Source: a virus. From it: a stretch of DNA of 29,890 nucleotides. The stretch spans positions 1-29,890 of IMG/VR virus record IMGVR_UViG_3300015360_000141. One strand, 5' to 3'. Both the position numbers and the translations under genes were made by a program. The notes below the pieces were generated by a model, which worked only from the letters and a program-made list of their open reading frames with translations, did no database searches and had not been told where the DNA came from. Numbering within the stretch: position 1 is the first letter of the stretch; each line of letters opens with the position of its first letter. Below are positions 3,124 through 15,684 of the stretch, in pieces.

Positions 3124-3342
3124 TTGAATCTCTCCATTGACGAGATTATGAGTCTTGTTGATAGAATGGAAAACGAGACAAGGGCCCTCAAGCAAGAACT
3201 ATTCAAAATGTGTTGGTACATGCGAGGTGGGCTCACAATGACTGAAGCATATCAGCTAGACAATACTGACCGAGAGATCATTGGAAATCTTATCAGAGAG
3301 AATTTAGAAATTACCAAAGAAAGCGGAATGCCGTTCTTTTAA
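3124..3342 (+). CDS. Small gp51-like hub assembly protein, possibly made by frameshift from gp26
   Basis: This 72-codon frame encodes a short acidic/basic protein with a conserved-looking centre, MCWYMRGGLT, and the end SGMPFF. Small proteins with a CWYMRGG-type motif follow gp26 in T4-like phages of aquatic bacteria and are often treated as gp51-like hub assembly factors. I recognise the pattern but not with certainty. The only initiation codons are TTG at 3124, with no spaced ribosome binding site, and an internal ATG at 3148. The frame is open upstream through the slippery T run at the end of gp26, so the natural product may be a gp26 extension. The stop overlaps by four bases the convergent 317-aa gene. 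Confidence 0.65.
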   Translation: MNLSIDEIMSLVDRMENETRALKQELFKMCWYMRGGLTMTEAYQLDNTDREIIGNLIRENLEITKESGMPFF

Positions 3343-4292
3343 GGCGTTTTGCCTTCTAGTTCGTCAGCTTTAGTTCTAATAAATGTCGCTAATCGGTCCT
3401 TGTCGGCATCACTAAAGTTGTTAGCTTGCATCAACAGTGTACCCAATGCCACTTCTACATCATTTGCATTTCTAATTGGCGGTATAGCTGATGACTTAGG
3501 TGCGCCCTGTGGAGCCGTTTTCACAACAGGTCCTTGAGGAGTTCTATTAGGGGCAGAAGAAGTACCACTAGGTGCTTTGGAAGTTTGTGGAACAGCCGCT
3601 GCCGGATCAGTAATACCTAATCCCAGATACAATTCTTCAATTTGATCTTGCCTCATGCCTGACGTAATTAAGATCTCTGCAATTTTTTTGGTATTATTTG
3701 GACTACCTGCGGCTATCCATTGCTTGATTAATTTGTCTCGAGTAATTTTATCGAACATGCCCTCTGGTATTGGTCGCCGACCATTGAAAGAAGATATCTG
3801 TCCTTTAACTGCATCAGAGACTAACTTGAAATATCCAATTATAGCGCCTTTGTTAGTTCCACTAGCTGCCATGCCATTAGCAGCTACTAATGAATTGTAT
3901 ATTAAACTCTGAAGTTGAGTATCAGAAATCATCGACTGATTAAAGAAGTTCTTATATATGTCATAGGCCGAATCGTTGCCAGTAGTTGATTTGAGTTTTA
4001 CAAATTCTTCATCAAACTTAGCTGCTATACCAGGAACCGGTCTAGTAGATGCGGCGTTTGTTTCAATATCTGCAATTGCGTCTCTCATTAATGAATCATG
4101 ATCTTTGCCCATAACTTTATCTTTGAGCTGACCAATTGTGGATCGATTAGAACCCATTATATCTGTATTAGCCATTCTCTCTGCACGAGAAAATAGATTA
4201 GATATTTGTTGTGTGTTGAGCTGATCTTCTAACAAGGATTTCACTTCATGGAGGTCCATTTGTGTATTTGATTCGACGTCATGTAGTCTCAT
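3339..4292 (-). CDS. Hypothetical protein, 317 aa
   Basis: I do not recognise this protein. It starts at ATG 4292, behind AAGGA eleven bases upstream and a late-type octamer at 4315-4322. Residues 1-215 look mainly helical and charged, with no membrane segment or signal peptide. Residues about 230-270 are a linker rich in Pro, Ser, Thr and Ala. A short C-terminal helical segment (about 275-314) follows. A folded domain, a disordered linker and a small terminal domain would fit a virion or assembly protein, and the candidate late promoter and position beside tail genes agree with that. The function is unknown. Its stop overlaps by four bases the stop of the convergent gp51-like frame. Confidence 0.75.
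   Translation of the reverse strand: MRLHDVESNTQMDLHEVKSLLEDQLNTQQISNLFSRAERMANTDIMGSNRSTIGQLKDKVMGKDHDSLMRDAIADIETNAASTRPVPGIAAKFDEEFVKLKSTTGNDSAYDIYKNFFNQSMISDTQLQSLIYNSLVAANGMAASGTNKGAIIGYFKLVSDAVKGQISSFNGRRPIPEGMFDKITRDKLIKQWIAAGSPNNTKKIAEILITSGMRQDQIEELYLGLGITDPAAAVPQTSKAPSGTSSAPNRTPQGPVVKTAPQGAPKSSAIPPIRNANDVEVALGTLLMQANNFSDADKDRLATFIRTKADELEGKTP
3341..3355. terminator. Weak hairpin at a convergent gene end
   Basis: AAGGC (3341-3345) pairs with GCCTT (3351-3355) around a five-base loop, exactly where two converging genes end. The stem is short. On the minus strand it is followed by AAAAG rather than a T run, so a terminator role is only suggested by position. Confidence 0.2.
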
Positions 4293-4314
4293 GTAGTTGA
4301 TATTCCTTTGATAA

Positions 4315-4322
4315 TATTTATC
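4315..4322 (-). promoter_or_regulatory. T4-late-type promoter candidate for the 317-aa gene
   Basis: On the minus strand this is GATAAATA, part of the same ten-base string GATAAATATT found before gp26. It lies 22 bases upstream of the ATG at 4292, immediately after two abutting hairpins. The spacing to the start codon is short, so the leader would be only about 10-15 bases. Confidence 0.4.
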
Positions 4323-4328
4323 TGTTAG

Positions 4329-4370
4329 AAGTGAGCTCTGCTCACTTGATATGAGCCTTCAGCTCATATC
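4329..4370. repeat. Two abutting perfect hairpins
   Basis: The first hairpin is AAGTGAGC / GCTCACTT (4329-4336 with 4340-4347, loop TCT). The second is GATATGAGC / GCTCATATC (4348-4356 with 4362-4370, loop CTTCA). They touch with no base between and share a GAGC/GCTC core. Neither is followed by a convincing T run on either strand. They could end the adjacent RNA, insulate the 317-aa gene from upstream leftward transcription, or be an RNA-processing or protein-binding site. Confidence 0.8.
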
Positions 4371-4475
4371 CTTTACTTCGTCTTTGATCTATTGTCGAAA
4401 ACTCTAAAAACGATAATATCAACGTGATACACGAGAACAATGATACTTTGAAATATTCTTTCCAAGATTTGGCCA

Positions 4476-4828
4476 TTCTTTGCCCGGAAACGGGCAAAGA
4501 AATAATAAAAACCCTTTCCTGAGTTATCACCATCTAACATTACTGCATTACAGAGGCGGTCATCCTGTACCTCGAGCAGCGGCTTTATATGACGGCATTC
4601 TGTTGCATAGATGTTAGCCCACACAACGAACCGGGATATTTCTTCCCTCCTTTAGCCATGAGAATTCGTTCTTTTCAAGCAGCCAAACCGCAGCGCTTCG
4701 CGATCGTCGTCCTGTTAAGGATAGTGGCTGAGTACTCTGAAGCAGCGCAGAGAATTCCGACCCCACACGTTCCTGTGGTTATGGGCACCCGATGTTAGCC
4801 GGTGCTAGCTGTTACTGCATTAACGGGT
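4476..4828. ncRNA. Probable structured noncoding RNA of unknown family
   Basis: This lies in a 546-base stretch (4293-4838) with no convincing gene. By hand count bases 4561-4800 are about 52% G+C, against roughly 32-37% in nearby 60-base lines. Perfect inverted repeats are dense. An 11-bp hairpin with a GAAA loop pairs 4476-4486 with 4491-4501. A long arm pairs 4534-4540 with 4611-4617, then 4544-4547/4604-4607, 4550-4554/4599-4603 and 4559-4563/4589-4593. Others are 4625-4630/4665-4670, 4763-4767/4774-4778, and 4787-4791/4824-4828. TTACTGCATTA occurs twice (4540-4550, 4812-4822), as does GATGTTAGCC (4610-4619, 4791-4800), so alternative pairings are possible. The strand is unsettled. The GAAA tetraloop favours plus, while both flanking genes run on minus. 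It does not match tRNA, tmRNA or a group I intron core by eye. Confidence 0.5.
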
Positions 4829-4838
4829 TCTGTTCAAG

Positions 4839-5297
4839 CTATGGGGAGGTTTTTGACGTGGTGTCTGTGGGTTCAAGGTTTTTAATGTGGGAGCCGTGGA
4901 CTCTCAATTGTATGATATTGTTGTAATAGTCTTTGGTTTCGAGGACTTTTCTTTCGAATTGTTCCCTTGCTTCAATGTAGCTGCATTCAGCCTTTGAATG
5001 GCAATAATGCAGAATCTCTCGAGTAAATCGGTCTACTCCTAATAGAGCAATATCGTTGAGCAGTTCGTTGCTGCTCCCATAATATGTACGCCAGTCGGAT
5101 TCGATTTTACTTCTTATCTTTTTCTTTTTCTTCTTGCCGTTTTTTTGAACAACTGTTTTTTGGGTAGTTTTAGAAAATTTACTGAGCTTCTTACCAATAT
5201 ATTTTCGGCCGGTATCAATGTTCACAATGCAGTAGACAAACCCGACACAATCGTCGGGCAGTTCGTCTACTAATGTGCCTTGATATGTCCAGCTCAT
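4839..5297 (-). CDS. GIY-YIG domain nuclease-like protein
   Basis: This 152-aa protein carries a GIY-YIG signature near the N-terminus, GFVY (residues 19-22) and KYIG (32-35). A lysine-rich loop with six consecutive Lys follows, then SDWRTYYGSS and an acidic segment, YIEAREQFERKVLE, where the metal-binding Glu of the family would be expected. GIY-YIG nucleases cut DNA. T4-like phages carry both mobile members (Seg proteins) and stable ones. Its ATG overlaps the stop of the upstream 102-aa gene as ATGA, and that gene overlaps gp46, so it is translationally coupled to the recombination genes. This favours a resident function in DNA processing over a recent homing insertion, which is inference. 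It has no obvious extra DNA-binding domain. Confidence 0.75.
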   Translation of the reverse strand: MSWTYQGTLVDELPDDCVGFVYCIVNIDTGRKYIGKKLSKFSKTTQKTVVQKNGKKKKKKIRSKIESDWRTYYGSSNELLNDIALLGVDRFTREILHYCHSKAECSYIEAREQFERKVLETKDYYNNIIQLRVHGSHIKNLEPTDTTSKTSP

Positions 5298-8426: not shown

Positions 8427-8456
8427 AATATATTATCATTTATTGATGAAAGTCAA
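8427..8456 (-). promoter_or_regulatory. Sigma70-like promoter candidate for gp47-gp46
   Basis: On the minus strand TTGACT (8456-8451) and TATATT (8432-8427) are separated by 18 bases. Each hexamer matches the consensus at five of six positions. The stop codon TGA of the upstream endonuclease gene lies inside the -35 hexamer. The expected transcript would begin near 8420 and give a leader of about 18 bases before gp47. The spacing is one base over the optimum. Confidence 0.5.
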
Positions 8457-10186
8457 GTATTGAATTGGTAAACTAGGTTTCCACAGTCCCAAATCTTATT
8501 ATATCCGTTGTTTCTCATGTTGTCACTTTCGGACATTGTCGGATCAAACATCGGTAGTTTAGAGTGTAACATATGTTTTTGCCATTGATTCCTTGACCCG
8601 GCGTAATTTCCATTTTTCGTAACATAGAAAAAATTTGGAGAACTCTGATGAAGTTGTGTAAATCCAATTTTTTCATAAAGGTTACCGGTTGAAAATCTCA
8701 AATTGCAATAACTGATTATTTTAGAATGTTTTGGAATTTTCTGAATGAAAGAATTAAGTAATCTACTCACTCCTCCAACTACTGAAATACCTATCTGAGA
8801 ACATGCTCGCAACAGTTCCCAGTCAAAACTCTTATTGAAGCGGCTTTTGCCAAAAGTAACCATGCATAAAATTTCATCAGATGAATCAACCAATGCAAGA
8901 TTGACACTGCTGGCACAATCTCCTTGAATGTGATTCTGTTTCATAAATTTGGATTTATCTTTATTGTTGATTTCTTTTATGGATAGTTTCCTGGCAAAAA
9001 CAGTCTTTCCTAATTTTAATTTATGTGAGAGTTTTGATTTTATGATTGACAATTTTTCTTCAATTTCCCAATCAAAAAAATGCCACAATTCAATGCCATG
9101 TTCACTACACATTTTAGTTTTATTTAGATGATATTTTTGATCTTTTCCTTGTCCTTCATGATGCCAATACCCTCCGTTAATTTCGATCGCGAGATTAAAA
9201 TTAGGGATCAAGATATCTAATTCATATGGATAAATTGTTTTTCTATCTTTTTTAAGGTATGGTATTTTGATTTCGTCTAGGTAATCACATAATACCTGTT
9301 CGTGAGAACTTGAATAATGGTGCATTATTTCTATATTATATTTGGCATAGTATTTGCATAAATTGCTAGAGCTAATCCCAAGGTCGAGAGCAATTTGTCC
9401 TACGCTTTTCCCAAGTTTGTTTTCGTTTTTAAGCCATTCTGGATTATTAAGTTTATCTAGAACATCGGGGTCGTAGTAATTTGTTTTTCGAGATTCACCG
9501 CGCTTTGCGGCTATTTCTTTATTTTTCGCAGGATTATCAACTCCATATCTTGATAACATAGTGTCTTTTATTTTTGACTTTATATCTGGCGATGACAACA
9601 CTGATCGGTGCCCTCGTCGACTGATGTTGGTGTTCTTTATCTTTTCTTTAACACGTTGGCATTTTCCGGGATTGTCAACTCCCATAGAATTAATCCATTT
9701 AATTTTTGCGGCTTCTCGTACTTCTGCATTTTCAAACGGTGTCTTTGTTCCGAATCTTTTTATATTGTTGTCTCTGACCGATTGCTTACATTCTATGGTT
9801 TGAGAATAAAACGAGACTCCGTATTTTTTGATAGAAGTTGCTAGTGACTTCTGTCGATACTCTTTGGTCTTGGAAAAATGGTCAGTACCGTATTTTTTGA
9901 TCGTCGATTGTTTTCTTTTTTCTTGAGAATAAATGCTGGTACATTTTTTTGAACAATATATTCGATATCTTAATTGATCAGTATGCCATTCTAATTCATT
10001 CCCACATTGACATGTTGGAACATTGATCAATTGATTAATTGCATGGTACAACACCTGTCGAGGATTGGTTGTGTTTATCTGAATAGCAATTCTCTGTAAT
10101 TCAGGGTACATGGCAATGTCAGATTTTTTCAGGTACTTTTTTTCAAGTAATGCTTGATATATCGGAATGTTCTTCGTCGAGGGCAT
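8453..10186 (-). CDS. Homing-endonuclease-like protein with a Vsr-type nuclease domain
   Basis: This 577-aa protein has a modular layout seen in free-standing phage homing endonucleases. A zinc-ribbon-like CxC...CxxxC lies at C59, C61, C78, C82. About six short repeats with a K/R-(Y/F)G core (for example KYG 121-123, YGVDNP 214-219) fill residues about 95-235. A helix-turn-helix, SVGQIALDLGISSSNLCKYY, is at 261-280. A Vsr/PD-(D/E)xK-type core follows, with E296, ELDI (D324), IEINGGYWHHE (E335 to E344) and an HLNKTKMC segment. A C-terminal domain (about 410-577) of unclear function ends the protein. The pattern CNLRFSTGNLYEKIGF in it recalls an acyltransferase fold, but this is weak. It sits between gp55 and gp47, which are near neighbours in T4-like phages, and its start overlaps the gp55 end by 44 bases. 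Insertion of a mobile gene is inferred. Confidence 0.8.
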   Translation of the reverse strand: MPSTKNIPIYQALLEKKYLKKSDIAMYPELQRIAIQINTTNPRQVLYHAINQLINVPTCQCGNELEWHTDQLRYRIYCSKKCTSIYSQEKRKQSTIKKYGTDHFSKTKEYRQKSLATSIKKYGVSFYSQTIECKQSVRDNNIKRFGTKTPFENAEVREAAKIKWINSMGVDNPGKCQRVKEKIKNTNISRRGHRSVLSSPDIKSKIKDTMLSRYGVDNPAKNKEIAAKRGESRKTNYYDPDVLDKLNNPEWLKNENKLGKSVGQIALDLGISSSNLCKYYAKYNIEIMHHYSSSHEQVLCDYLDEIKIPYLKKDRKTIYPYELDILIPNFNLAIEINGGYWHHEGQGKDQKYHLNKTKMCSEHGIELWHFFDWEIEEKLSIIKSKLSHKLKLGKTVFARKLSIKEINNKDKSKFMKQNHIQGDCASSVNLALVDSSDEILCMVTFGKSRFNKSFDWELLRACSQIGISVVGGVSRLLNSFIQKIPKHSKIISYCNLRFSTGNLYEKIGFTQLHQSSPNFFYVTKNGNYAGSRNQWQKHMLHSKLPMFDPTMSESDNMRNNGYNKIWDCGNLVYQFNT

Positions 10187-12558: not shown

Positions 12559-15500
12559 ATGCAAAATGATGCGGTCCGCAAGACCAATACAACTGCAAGT
12601 CAACAAATAACCGCAAAGGAAGAATTTGTAGAGAATTCAGAATCAAATCCTCTCAATTCATATAGATCATATACCTATAATTTCACCCTAGCTGCTCTTA
12701 AAAATCGAGGCAAGATAGACCCAAGTGAGTATGTGGAAAATCGCGACTATTTTGTCATTGCTAGATCTGGCGGCAAAGGAACTGGTGGAGTACAACTTGA
12801 TTTGTTGCCCGATCGCGTCGCAGCAACGAATGCTTTCACGCGGGCCGGGCAAGGCCTCATTGTAAATTATGAAAAACTCACAGTCACCGGTAAAGTTAGA
12901 GAAGCAATTGATTCGTCTTTGGTAAATTCCTTCAACGCCAAAAGTTCTGGGCGATTTGATTTTTACCTTGAAGATGTTGTAATTGACTCAATTGTATCGG
13001 GCAGCAATAAAACCAACATGAGTATCGCAACGAATATTGAATTTATTGTGCGAGAACAATTGAGCATGGCCGGGTTTATAGAGGCATTACATGTAACATC
13101 AATAGCAGCCGGATACAAAAGTTATCTAGGATCGCCGTTTCTTTTAAAGATGGAATTTATAGGGTATCCGGACGATGATTTGATGGGCCCTGCCCAAATA
13201 GTAGAAAATTCTACTCGATACTTTGTCATGGTGTTTACTGAAATAAACAGTGAGGTTACTGAGAAGGGCACGAAATACCGATGTTTTGCGACTCCGTTAA
13301 ATGAAATGGTATACGGAGAACCGTCAGTACTCAAAACAGATCTCAATGCCAGTGGATCTACAGTTAAGGATATATTAGGGTCACTTATCGACAATCTAAA
13401 TATTTCAATAAGAAAAGAAGCCGAGAAGGAAAAAAATCCTGCAGATCGAGACAAGTATGATGAATACCAAATTGTCTTTCCTTCAATTACCCCAGACGGA
13501 ATTGACGAAGCAACAGTGAATAGGATTGCTGATGCTACGGTTGCTGACTTGCTTTATTCAAGTTCAGTATATCAATTTCCTGAGTTACCTGATATTATAA
13601 CCGGTACAGCCACTCAAGGAATGCTAGACACTGCATCAGTGAAAGTCTCTCAATTGAAAGCAGAAATACCTTTTAGGCAAGGATCGTCTATCATTGATTG
13701 TGTTTCTTCAATTATCAGAGACAGTGAATACACTAAGGGAATTTTTAAGAATTTCAAAGACAGCGTGGATGCAAATGGCAATGTGTCGTATTTTATGGTT
13801 CACGCAGAATCTGAAATAAAAGGGGATTATGATCGAACCCGCAATCGTTTTTACTATAGATATAAATTTATCGTAGTTGAATATAAAATGAATTACAAAC
13901 GGATTACTCCACGTCCACAGGAAACATTAGACGACACGGCAATCAAAAAATTAATTCATCGCAAATATAGCTTTTTCTATTCTGGAGAAAATACAGATAT
14001 AATTCGTTTCAGACTCATATTTAACAGTCTATTTTTTCAGAGCTATCCTCGATACATGGGTAATTTTACCTATGCACCAATAAACACCGCTGGTTTATTA
14101 ACTGATATTAGTGATGTTATTTTAAATCGTGCCACGCAGGAATCAAGCATTAACGGAGACGCTCCATTATATCCCACAGTGGAAAGTTCGAGGGCTTCCC
14201 CTGGAGGATTGGTGAGCGGAGTGGGTATGCAAGGGGATCCGTATAGTGCATTAGCTCGAAGTTTACATCAGAATATTTTAGAAAACATTGATCAATCTCA
14301 GATTGAAATTGACATTATTGGTGATCCATATTTTCTCACATCGTCGGCAATGGGTCAACAACGATTAGTATCTAATCCGGATTTCACAACAGGACTTAAA
14401 GAAGCGCCGGTATACACACAAGACGTTGTGATACTAGCTCAATTTAAAAACCCAATTGATATAGATCCGGAAACAGGAATGGCCATTTTTGATGACCAAT
14501 TTGCTCTTTATAGTGGACTGTTTAGAATTCTTGAAATTAATAGCAGATTTGAATCTGGAGTATTCAGTCAGAATCTCAAGCTCATTCGTTATCCGGGCCA
14601 GTATGCTGATACCAGACAACTGCCGCAGGAATTAAAATCTCCAATAACTTCGGTTGCCAATCCAAGTAAGGAGTCGGTCCCGGCGGCGATACCGGCGCCG
14701 GTTGGTTCTCGAGCAACACAACAGGGACTGGCAGCAAGTATCGCCGCCGGCCTTCCGGTTTTGGGATTGCCGGGGGACCTCAGTAATCTTATACCAGGTA
14801 GCAATATTCCCATATCGGGTCCTGGTTCGTCGGTGTTTACGTCTGGGGAGAATATAACCGGGGCTGCGTCGTCGGGTATTGGCTCTGTTATTAATCGGGT
14901 AATTGGCGGAAATTCTCAAGGATTAAGAAACGTTGATTCTTTGTTGAGGTTGTCACAATCTGGACTATTGCCTTATTCTCCAACATCGAATACCTTTGGT
15001 GCAGATGTATTTCAGGTATCAAATGTTCTAAATTCAACGGGAATTTCTAACATTAATATTGGATCTCTTGCACAGAATCTTAGCTCTCAATTGGGACAAA
15101 CAATTGATGAACAGGCATTGTCGTCAATTATCTCATTGGGCAACAACTCTAGTGGAGTGGTGTCTGGGGCTGCATCAAAAATAAGTGAATTAACTGGTAA
15201 TTCAAACGCAATTTCTGCACAGTTGGGTATAGAAGAATCTGTGCTGTCAGGGCTTTCGCCAACGCTGAGAACTAAGTTGACTGAGAAAATATCAGCCGCA
15301 GCATCAAAAGTTCCTACTAATGTTGATCTAACTCGAGCGTCACAGCAAGGGTTGCTATTGAAAAATATATCAATTTCAGATCTTCCAAATATTCCAGCAA
15401 CTCAATCAAAAAACATATCAACAGCAGTTTCCTCAGTTGCTGCCCGATCTGCAAATCAATTAGATGTTCTGTCAAATTCTCAGAAGGCGTTAGTTGTATA

Positions 15501-15684
15501 TGATAAGATTACATCAACGCTGAAAACGACGTCAGCGAATGAAACGAAATTAAATAGAGTCAGTGAATTTATTGCTGCTGAAGTTCCTAATACATCAAAT
15601 GTGGGATCAAGTGTAGTAGAGCGTTATGGACGAACTGAAACGAGAGTTAGTCCTTTAGATTCTTTGATTAGAAGACGAACTTAA
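12559..15684 (+). CDS. Large baseplate hub-like structural protein, 1041 aa
   Basis: The N-terminal half has stretches found in large structural proteins of T4-like aquatic phages: NPLNSYRSYTYNFTLAAL (about 30-47), DYFVIARSGGKGTGG, GRFDFYLEDVVID, TNMSIATNIEFIVREQLSMAGFIEAL, LLKMEFIGYPDDD, and STRYFVMVFTEI. It precedes the gp5-like spike gene by a single base (TAATATG), and no separate gp27 is visible, so it is the best positional candidate for the hub protein that holds gp5. That is inference, since T4 gp27 is only 391 aa. The last 330 residues or so are low in charge and rich in Ser, Asn, Ile, Gly and Leu, with many short LxxLS-like turns, perhaps an extended or beta-rich region. GGAAG precedes the ATG. 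Confidence 0.7.
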   Translation: MQNDAVRKTNTTASQQITAKEEFVENSESNPLNSYRSYTYNFTLAALKNRGKIDPSEYVENRDYFVIARSGGKGTGGVQLDLLPDRVAATNAFTRAGQGLIVNYEKLTVTGKVREAIDSSLVNSFNAKSSGRFDFYLEDVVIDSIVSGSNKTNMSIATNIEFIVREQLSMAGFIEALHVTSIAAGYKSYLGSPFLLKMEFIGYPDDDLMGPAQIVENSTRYFVMVFTEINSEVTEKGTKYRCFATPLNEMVYGEPSVLKTDLNASGSTVKDILGSLIDNLNISIRKEAEKEKNPADRDKYDEYQIVFPSITPDGIDEATVNRIADATVADLLYSSSVYQFPELPDIITGTATQGMLDTASVKVSQLKAEIPFRQGSSIIDCVSSIIRDSEYTKGIFKNFKDSVDANGNVSYFMVHAESEIKGDYDRTRNRFYYRYKFIVVEYKMNYKRITPRPQETLDDTAIKKLIHRKYSFFYSGENTDIIRFRLIFNSLFFQSYPRYMGNFTYAPINTAGLLTDISDVILNRATQESSINGDAPLYPTVESSRASPGGLVSGVGMQGDPYSALARSLHQNILENIDQSQIEIDIIGDPYFLTSSAMGQQRLVSNPDFTTGLKEAPVYTQDVVILAQFKNPIDIDPETGMAIFDDQFALYSGLFRILEINSRFESGVFSQNLKLIRYPGQYADTRQLPQELKSPITSVANPSKESVPAAIPAPVGSRATQQGLAASIAAGLPVLGLPGDLSNLIPGSNIPISGPGSSVFTSGENITGAASSGIGSVINRVIGGNSQGLRNVDSLLRLSQSGLLPYSPTSNTFGADVFQVSNVLNSTGISNINIGSLAQNLSSQLGQTIDEQALSSIISLGNNSSGVVSGAASKISELTGNSNAISAQLGIEESVLSGLSPTLRTKLTEKISAAASKVPTNVDLTRASQQGLLLKNISISDLPNIPATQSKNISTAVSSVAARSANQLDVLSNSQKALVVYDKITSTLKTTSANETKLNRVSEFIAAEVPNTSNVGSSVVERYGRTETRVSPLDSLIRRRT

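Follow-up and report, generated by a model that had tools for sequence, protein, structure and literature searches.

Polynucleobacter-1 (Rfam RF01718) was entered in a 2010 motif table as an RNA ("y") that is cis-regulatory ("y") and queried as a switch ("?"), with its taxa and habitat given as "Burkholderiales, fresh water/estuary" (PMC2864571). Among the large ornate RNAs, GOLLD combines a conserved 3' region with a variable 5' region, and OLE works with several proteins and dimerises (PMC12286853).

The window analysed here, a virus record of 29,890 bases, looks like a fragment of a T4-like myovirus, with SbcC/SbcD (gp46/47-like), a late sigma factor, a homing endonuclease and many baseplate proteins. 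Its gene-free segment, 4293-4838, has minus-strand ORFs on either side, with boundaries at 4292 and 4839, and codes for a structured minus-strand RNA that runs from about 4826 to at least 4447. The 5' domain of this RNA matches the Polynucleobacter-1 model over its full length. The RNA differs from Polynucleobacter-1 in belonging to phages, in being more than twice as long (roughly 400 bases, against the 141 nt of the model), in having two extra pseudoknots within the known part and in carrying also a 3' core and the matched elements R1 and R2; furthermore, its gene placement contradicts the suggested leader role, a proposal that lies outside the Rfam model.

The RNA as a whole is built along the lines of the large ornate phage RNAs. 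Like GOLLD and ROOL, which are of unknown function, it is a large, multi-pseudoknot RNA of phages or prophages, and with GOLLD it shares the layout of a conserved 3' and a variable 5' region; it is, however, shorter and has a different neighbour gene, and whereas GOLLD and ROOL are often near tRNA islands, the window holds no tRNA. OLE is likewise large and ornate but occurs mainly in extremophilic bacteria, whereas the present RNA is found in phages. Neither a cmscan of the window nor a permissive scan of 4200-5000 gave a match to GOLLD, ROOL or OLE, in agreement with an earlier note on this DNA that could place the stretch with neither of the first two. The omega RNAs of IscB and TnpB are structured RNAs lying immediately 3' of a nuclease gene. 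The present RNA, too, directly follows a nuclease gene, but the protein in question, SegE, is a GIY-YIG protein that occurs in many phages without the RNA. Group I and II introns gave no Rfam match, and the RNA lies between complete ORFs. A literature search, made largely in open-access journal papers, recovered no description of the extended RNA.

One continuous minus-strand RNA of at least about 380 nt

The earlier note had proposed an unrecognised, densely structured noncoding RNA and suggested a cmscan against Rfam. This search found RF01718 on the minus strand (76.3 bits against a gathering cut-off of 37; E = 1e-14), the sole family to reach its cut-off in the window, and its score places the 5' domain inside that family. 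Thus, "unrecognised" does not hold for 4677-4810; it does hold for the 3' core and the pseudoknots, for the exchange of the 5' domain, for the assignment to phages and for the repeats that match each other. In homologs, conservation extends downstream past the model, and covarying structure reaches beyond it by about 230 nt on the 3' side and by a few nucleotides on the 5' side. The Rfam model is a fragment, covering about one-third (the 5' third) of the whole RNA.

The latter is one continuous minus-strand RNA of at least about 380 nt, consisting of the 5' domain, a pseudoknotted core and matched elements flanking a hairpin (Table 1). Among 81 dereplicated homologs, the top covarying column pairs are mostly complementary and stack into helices, and the homolog alignment contains at least five pseudoknot helices. 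In a second alignment, built with MAFFT from 57 of the 81, standard pairs fill 93.8% of the pair cells, a figure that is inflated because the structure was derived from overlapping sequences. The compensatory counts are stronger evidence: both sides change in 62 of the 79 pairs, and cells changed on both sides number 649, whereas shuffling gives 184 and sliding the partners no more than 115. This massive covariation, for which the earlier note had proposed looking in homologs, together with the Rfam match, bears out the densely structured RNA; its noncoding nature is likewise upheld, with no long ORF in 4293-4838 kept in relatives and no protein conserved across the stretch. In the window sequence, 70 of the 76 pairs that can be counted are formed. 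The 5' domain and the core are taken as one unit because 48 of 50 records chosen solely by the core motif GGTACNGGNNNACCGCCNNNGTAA also carry RF01718; in the remaining two, the core starts 102 and 137 bases from the contig end.

The strand is assigned as minus because G-U cells (403) outnumber A-C cells (54) in the paired columns of the homolog alignment. Folding energy by itself is weak evidence and insufficient to reveal the RNA: calculated for both strands, as the earlier note had advised, its z-score is -1.6 for the minus strand, which offers the RNA little, and -3.2 for the plus strand. Several local readings in the same note proved accurate. The G+C content of 4561-4800, counted by hand as about 52%, is 51.7% (40.0% in the whole window and 38.2% at 4333-4560); the 11-bp stem with a GAAA loop, TTCTTTGCCCG-GAAA-CGGGCAAAGAA on the plus strand, is hairpin o; and the "long arm" at 4534-4617 overlaps the covarying helices k, m and n. 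Values above 50% G+C also occur at 14541-14960, within a large virion-protein ORF (12559-15684), and high G+C is thus not unique to the RNA segment.

A covariance model that we built for the core matches the window, one of its 39 sequences, at E = 2.8e-26, and cmscan offered no plausible Rfam family for the 3' core (best E, 3.2). The outer pair of helix m is CG in 23, GC in 22, UA in 8 and AU in 3 of the 57 sequences, with zero mispairs.

Table 1. Features of the RNA locus in window coordinates (the RNA reads downwards)
Feature	Position	Strand	Remarks
SegE-like GIY-YIG protein gene	4839..5297	-	Just upstream of the RNA; PF19835, E = 5e-34; phrog_447
Covariation-supported RNA body	4447..4826	-	57-sequence alignment; starts near 4826 and ends at 4447 or below
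5' domain (RF01718, Polynucleobacter-1 RNA)	4677..4810	-	cmscan, model positions 1-141 of 141
Pseudoknot helix a	4818-4814/4746-4742 (hairpin loop)	-	Outside Rfam structure line; 88% of cells paired, both-side changes in 4/5 pairs (57-sequence alignment)
Pseudoknot helix b	4810-4808/4799-4797 (hairpin c loop)	-	Outside Rfam structure line; 93% of cells paired, both-side changes in 2/3 pairs
Hairpin c	4805-4801/4789-4785	-	
Hairpin f	4752-4748/4739-4735	-	
Helix g	4730-4725/4685-4680	-	Closes 3' half of 5' domain; 98.5% paired, 5/6 pairs covary
Helix h	~4705-4700/4691-4686	-	
Hairpin j	~4628-4619/4610-4600	-	
Helix k	4617-4611 (hairpin j loop)/4540-4534	-	96% paired, 7/7 pairs covary
3' core domain	4449..4598	-	Absent from Rfam
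Core pseudoknot around GGTACnGGnnnACCGCC	4543..4593: l 4593-4589/4563-4559; m 4579-4576/4546-4543; n 4573-4569/4557-4553	-	
Element R1 (ACTC + 7-mer AGGAAAG)	4514..4524	-	Sequence; matched-pair rule in homologs
Hairpin o	~4477..4502	-	Between R1 and R2; kept in alignment
Element R2 (ATCT + 7-mer TGGAAAG)	4458..4468	-	Sequence; matched-pair rule in homologs
3' tail	4327..4446	-	Hairpins 4370-4348 and 4345-4327; inferred from sequence and analogous tail hairpins in relatives
Downstream ORF	3339..4292	-	317 aa, no family; not kept behind the RNA in homologs

We observed two further peculiarities in homologs. In the RF01718 part, CTATCC...GGACG alternates with CTACCC...GGATG (e.g., L316, L326 and L440); these columns switch jointly without base pairing (TC 58, CT 23), hinting at a tertiary contact. 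In five loci (L282, L284, L311, L315 and L338), short-repeat arrays (TTATAGTnAATTATAGTnAA) are inserted between core helix strands, after the ACCGCC strand, as if this core loop tolerated a mobile or expanding repeat.

Exchangeable 5' domains and phage ownership

The core is a broader unit than the RNA defined by RF01718, because it occurs with another 5' domain and in contigs lacking that family. Two loci (L191 and L197) and related contigs have the same core and R1-hairpin-R2 layout joined to a different 5' domain that lies outside Rfam, and this form of the RNA sits after a SegE gene or another stretch. The core model also detects weaker relatives in contigs without RF01718. A possible third 5' domain (AAGGTTGGCGGGCCAG...CACTATCCTGAAAAATCGG) was seen about 260 to 420 nt after the SegE gene in L210 and L211, where the core model gives only a weak match (E ~4e-5).

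The family is present on about 150 IMG/VR phage contigs, some of them larger than 340 kb. RF01718 exceeds its cut-off in 150 of 200 IMG/VR records (31, 40, 32 and 47 in four sets of 50), which is not a prevalence, since the records were selected by motif or SegE similarity, and in none of 14 control genomes. The strict core motif, which is about half sensitive (present in 33 of 70 homologs), was matched once in 84,980 species genomes of prokaryotes. The contig concerned, 4.5 kb long and binned in a Bacteroidetes metagenome-assembled genome, also bears baseplate-hub and homing-endonuclease genes. Among phage isolates, blastn with the stretch and with eight relatives recovered nothing credible, and a core-model search under stricter filters found the RNA in 0 of 12 SegE-bearing genomes. 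Judged on the IMG/VR contigs, the owners of the RNA are T4-like phages, and these infect aquatic bacteria. What entered the literature in 2010 as a small control motif of Burkholderiales thereby becomes about one-third of a large RNA of many T4-like phages; Polynucleobacter-1 gains a full structural model and is reassigned in its ownership, its limits and the way it probably acts.

The matched elements R1 and R2

In homologs, R1 (ACTC plus 7 nt) and R2 (ATCT plus 7 nt) are spaced 47 to 58 nt apart. Across 98 homologs, gathered by a pattern that did not require equal 7-mers, the two 7-mers of each RNA are equal at all variable positions save one cell, whereas between phages three of these positions agree only about half the time. 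The unselected alignment gives the same picture, with the paired columns reading GG 43, AA 36 and other 2; AA 45, GG 35 and other 1; and TT 55, AA 18, GG 5 and other 3. On a tree built without the R1/R2 columns, we counted 40 changes of the 7-mer in R1, 41 in R2 and 41 jointly. Even divergent copies are still matched (GACGAA in L322 and GTGTCAA in L283); in the window, the elements are identical at six of seven positions (GGAAAG), with A versus T at position +4. No close pairs of relatives (>45% shared 10-mers) have different words, and we do not claim an "instant" co-change of R1 and R2, because the closest word-differing pairs are about 80 to 85% identical.

On these alignments, the constraint looks like equality rather than complementarity, an unusual evolutionary signature, and we know of no structured RNA with a constraint of this kind. 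Several searches of limited power returned nothing: there is no covarying third column that would indicate a third strand pairing with R1/R2, no excess of R1/R2 complements within 1.4 kb (19.0 own against 18.6 swapped), no copy recurring consistently in either orientation among seven long contigs with usable motifs and no SegE residue associated with the fastest-changing R position. The last result speaks against SegE as the reader of R1/R2. A coding or ribosome-bypass reading, in which a codon is followed by UAA/UGA in both elements, was set aside as well, since the match continues through the stop into the next base; an in-frame stop just upstream, seen by eye in one homolog, also counters it. 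Hairpins enclosing R1 and R2 showed no clear pairing excess.

The matching could come from a partner with two binding sites, from a step of strand transfer or from concerted evolution. We tentatively entertain, while giving it somewhat less than an even chance, the idea of a modular class of large phage RNAs that includes this one, with a constant pseudoknotted core and an exchangeable 5' domain, built on a self-matching code of 7-nt words. Under such a code, two words vary across phages but must equal each other, so that a two-site partner would read the same word twice or a strand would be transferred from copy to copy across the hairpin, that is, by a programmed jump, template switch or excision. 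The signature opens either possibility, a specific partner or strand transfer, to direct testing.

Gene neighbourhood and mode of action

We consider it fairly probable, from comparative sequence evidence, that the stretch encodes a free-standing, trans-acting structured RNA of T4-like phages, most likely working as an RNA-protein or an RNA-only assembly. Carried by phages, the RNA stays in its position behind a SegE-like gene and retains the core where the 5' domain has been replaced. It would be transcribed with or just after the SegE gene, accumulate during infection and act as a scaffold, in the form of an RNA-protein particle or an RNA-only assembly. R1 and R2 might offer a single partner two copies of one variable word, or might take part in a process that depends on the words being equal.

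In 109 of 111 RNA loci, a SegE-like gene is found no more than 1.5 kb upstream, mostly 0 to 60 nt away; some loci were collected via SegE similarity, which favours that neighbour, and those found by RNA motif only show SegE too. This proximity, the close adjoining of the RNA to the SegE stop codon and the occasional overlap of the 5' pseudoknot strand with the last SegE codons would suit a purely cis-acting 3' UTR element that stabilises, processes or terminates the SegE message. We regard this as unlikely: in about ten loci other sequence intervenes, with SegE 800 to 1,060 nt from the RNA; the dozens of covarying pairs, swappable 5' domain and matched elements exceed the needs of a terminator; and SegE homologs are present in 457 isolate phages, of which the 12 searched with the core model showed no RNA. 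The last point also speaks against a mobile or RNA-guided nuclease unit formed with SegE (in the manner of TnpB/IscB and their omega RNAs) or a self-splicing intron and the homing endonuclease that goes with it. Such a unit is suggested by a structured RNA directly following a nuclease-fold gene while both neighbours change, the gene before SegE belonging to several families; nevertheless, with no intron or omega-RNA family matched by cmscan, no SegE residue tracking the fastest-changing R position and the RNA located between genes rather than within one, we judge it very improbable.

The trans-acting reading also fares better with respect to the gene after the RNA than does the riboswitch-like leader that the 2010 table implied and the earlier note had listed as an option. 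This gene is on the same strand in 47 of 93 loci and convergent in 46, and its identity varies over many families, unrelated ones among them; a general leader role is disfavoured because of the convergent cases, and we hold it to be extremely doubtful. Relatives of the 317-aa downstream ORF were sought and none was found, so it is useless as an anchor gene. Late-promoter-like TATAAATA sites, which also argue against a leader, lie 277 to 303 nt past the RF01718 end in 14 loci (e.g., L279, L309 and L316). The sites come after the tail hairpins in loci whose next gene shares the strand of the RNA, the window counterpart being GATAAATA at about 4308-4316, and their position suggests an end of the RNA ahead of a late transcription unit. 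No promoter turned up for the RNA itself, an exact TATAAATA being absent from the 600 nt upstream in all 93 loci, which counts against the trans-acting reading. That the segment holds no functional RNA, only compositional or repeat-derived structure, as the minus-strand folding energy could be read, is already refuted by covariation that beats both controls, alongside the Rfam match, and its probability is negligible.

Elsewhere in the window, an HNH/homing endonuclease gene (8453-10186, minus strand) is flanked by the SbcD-like gene and the gene for the late sigma factor.
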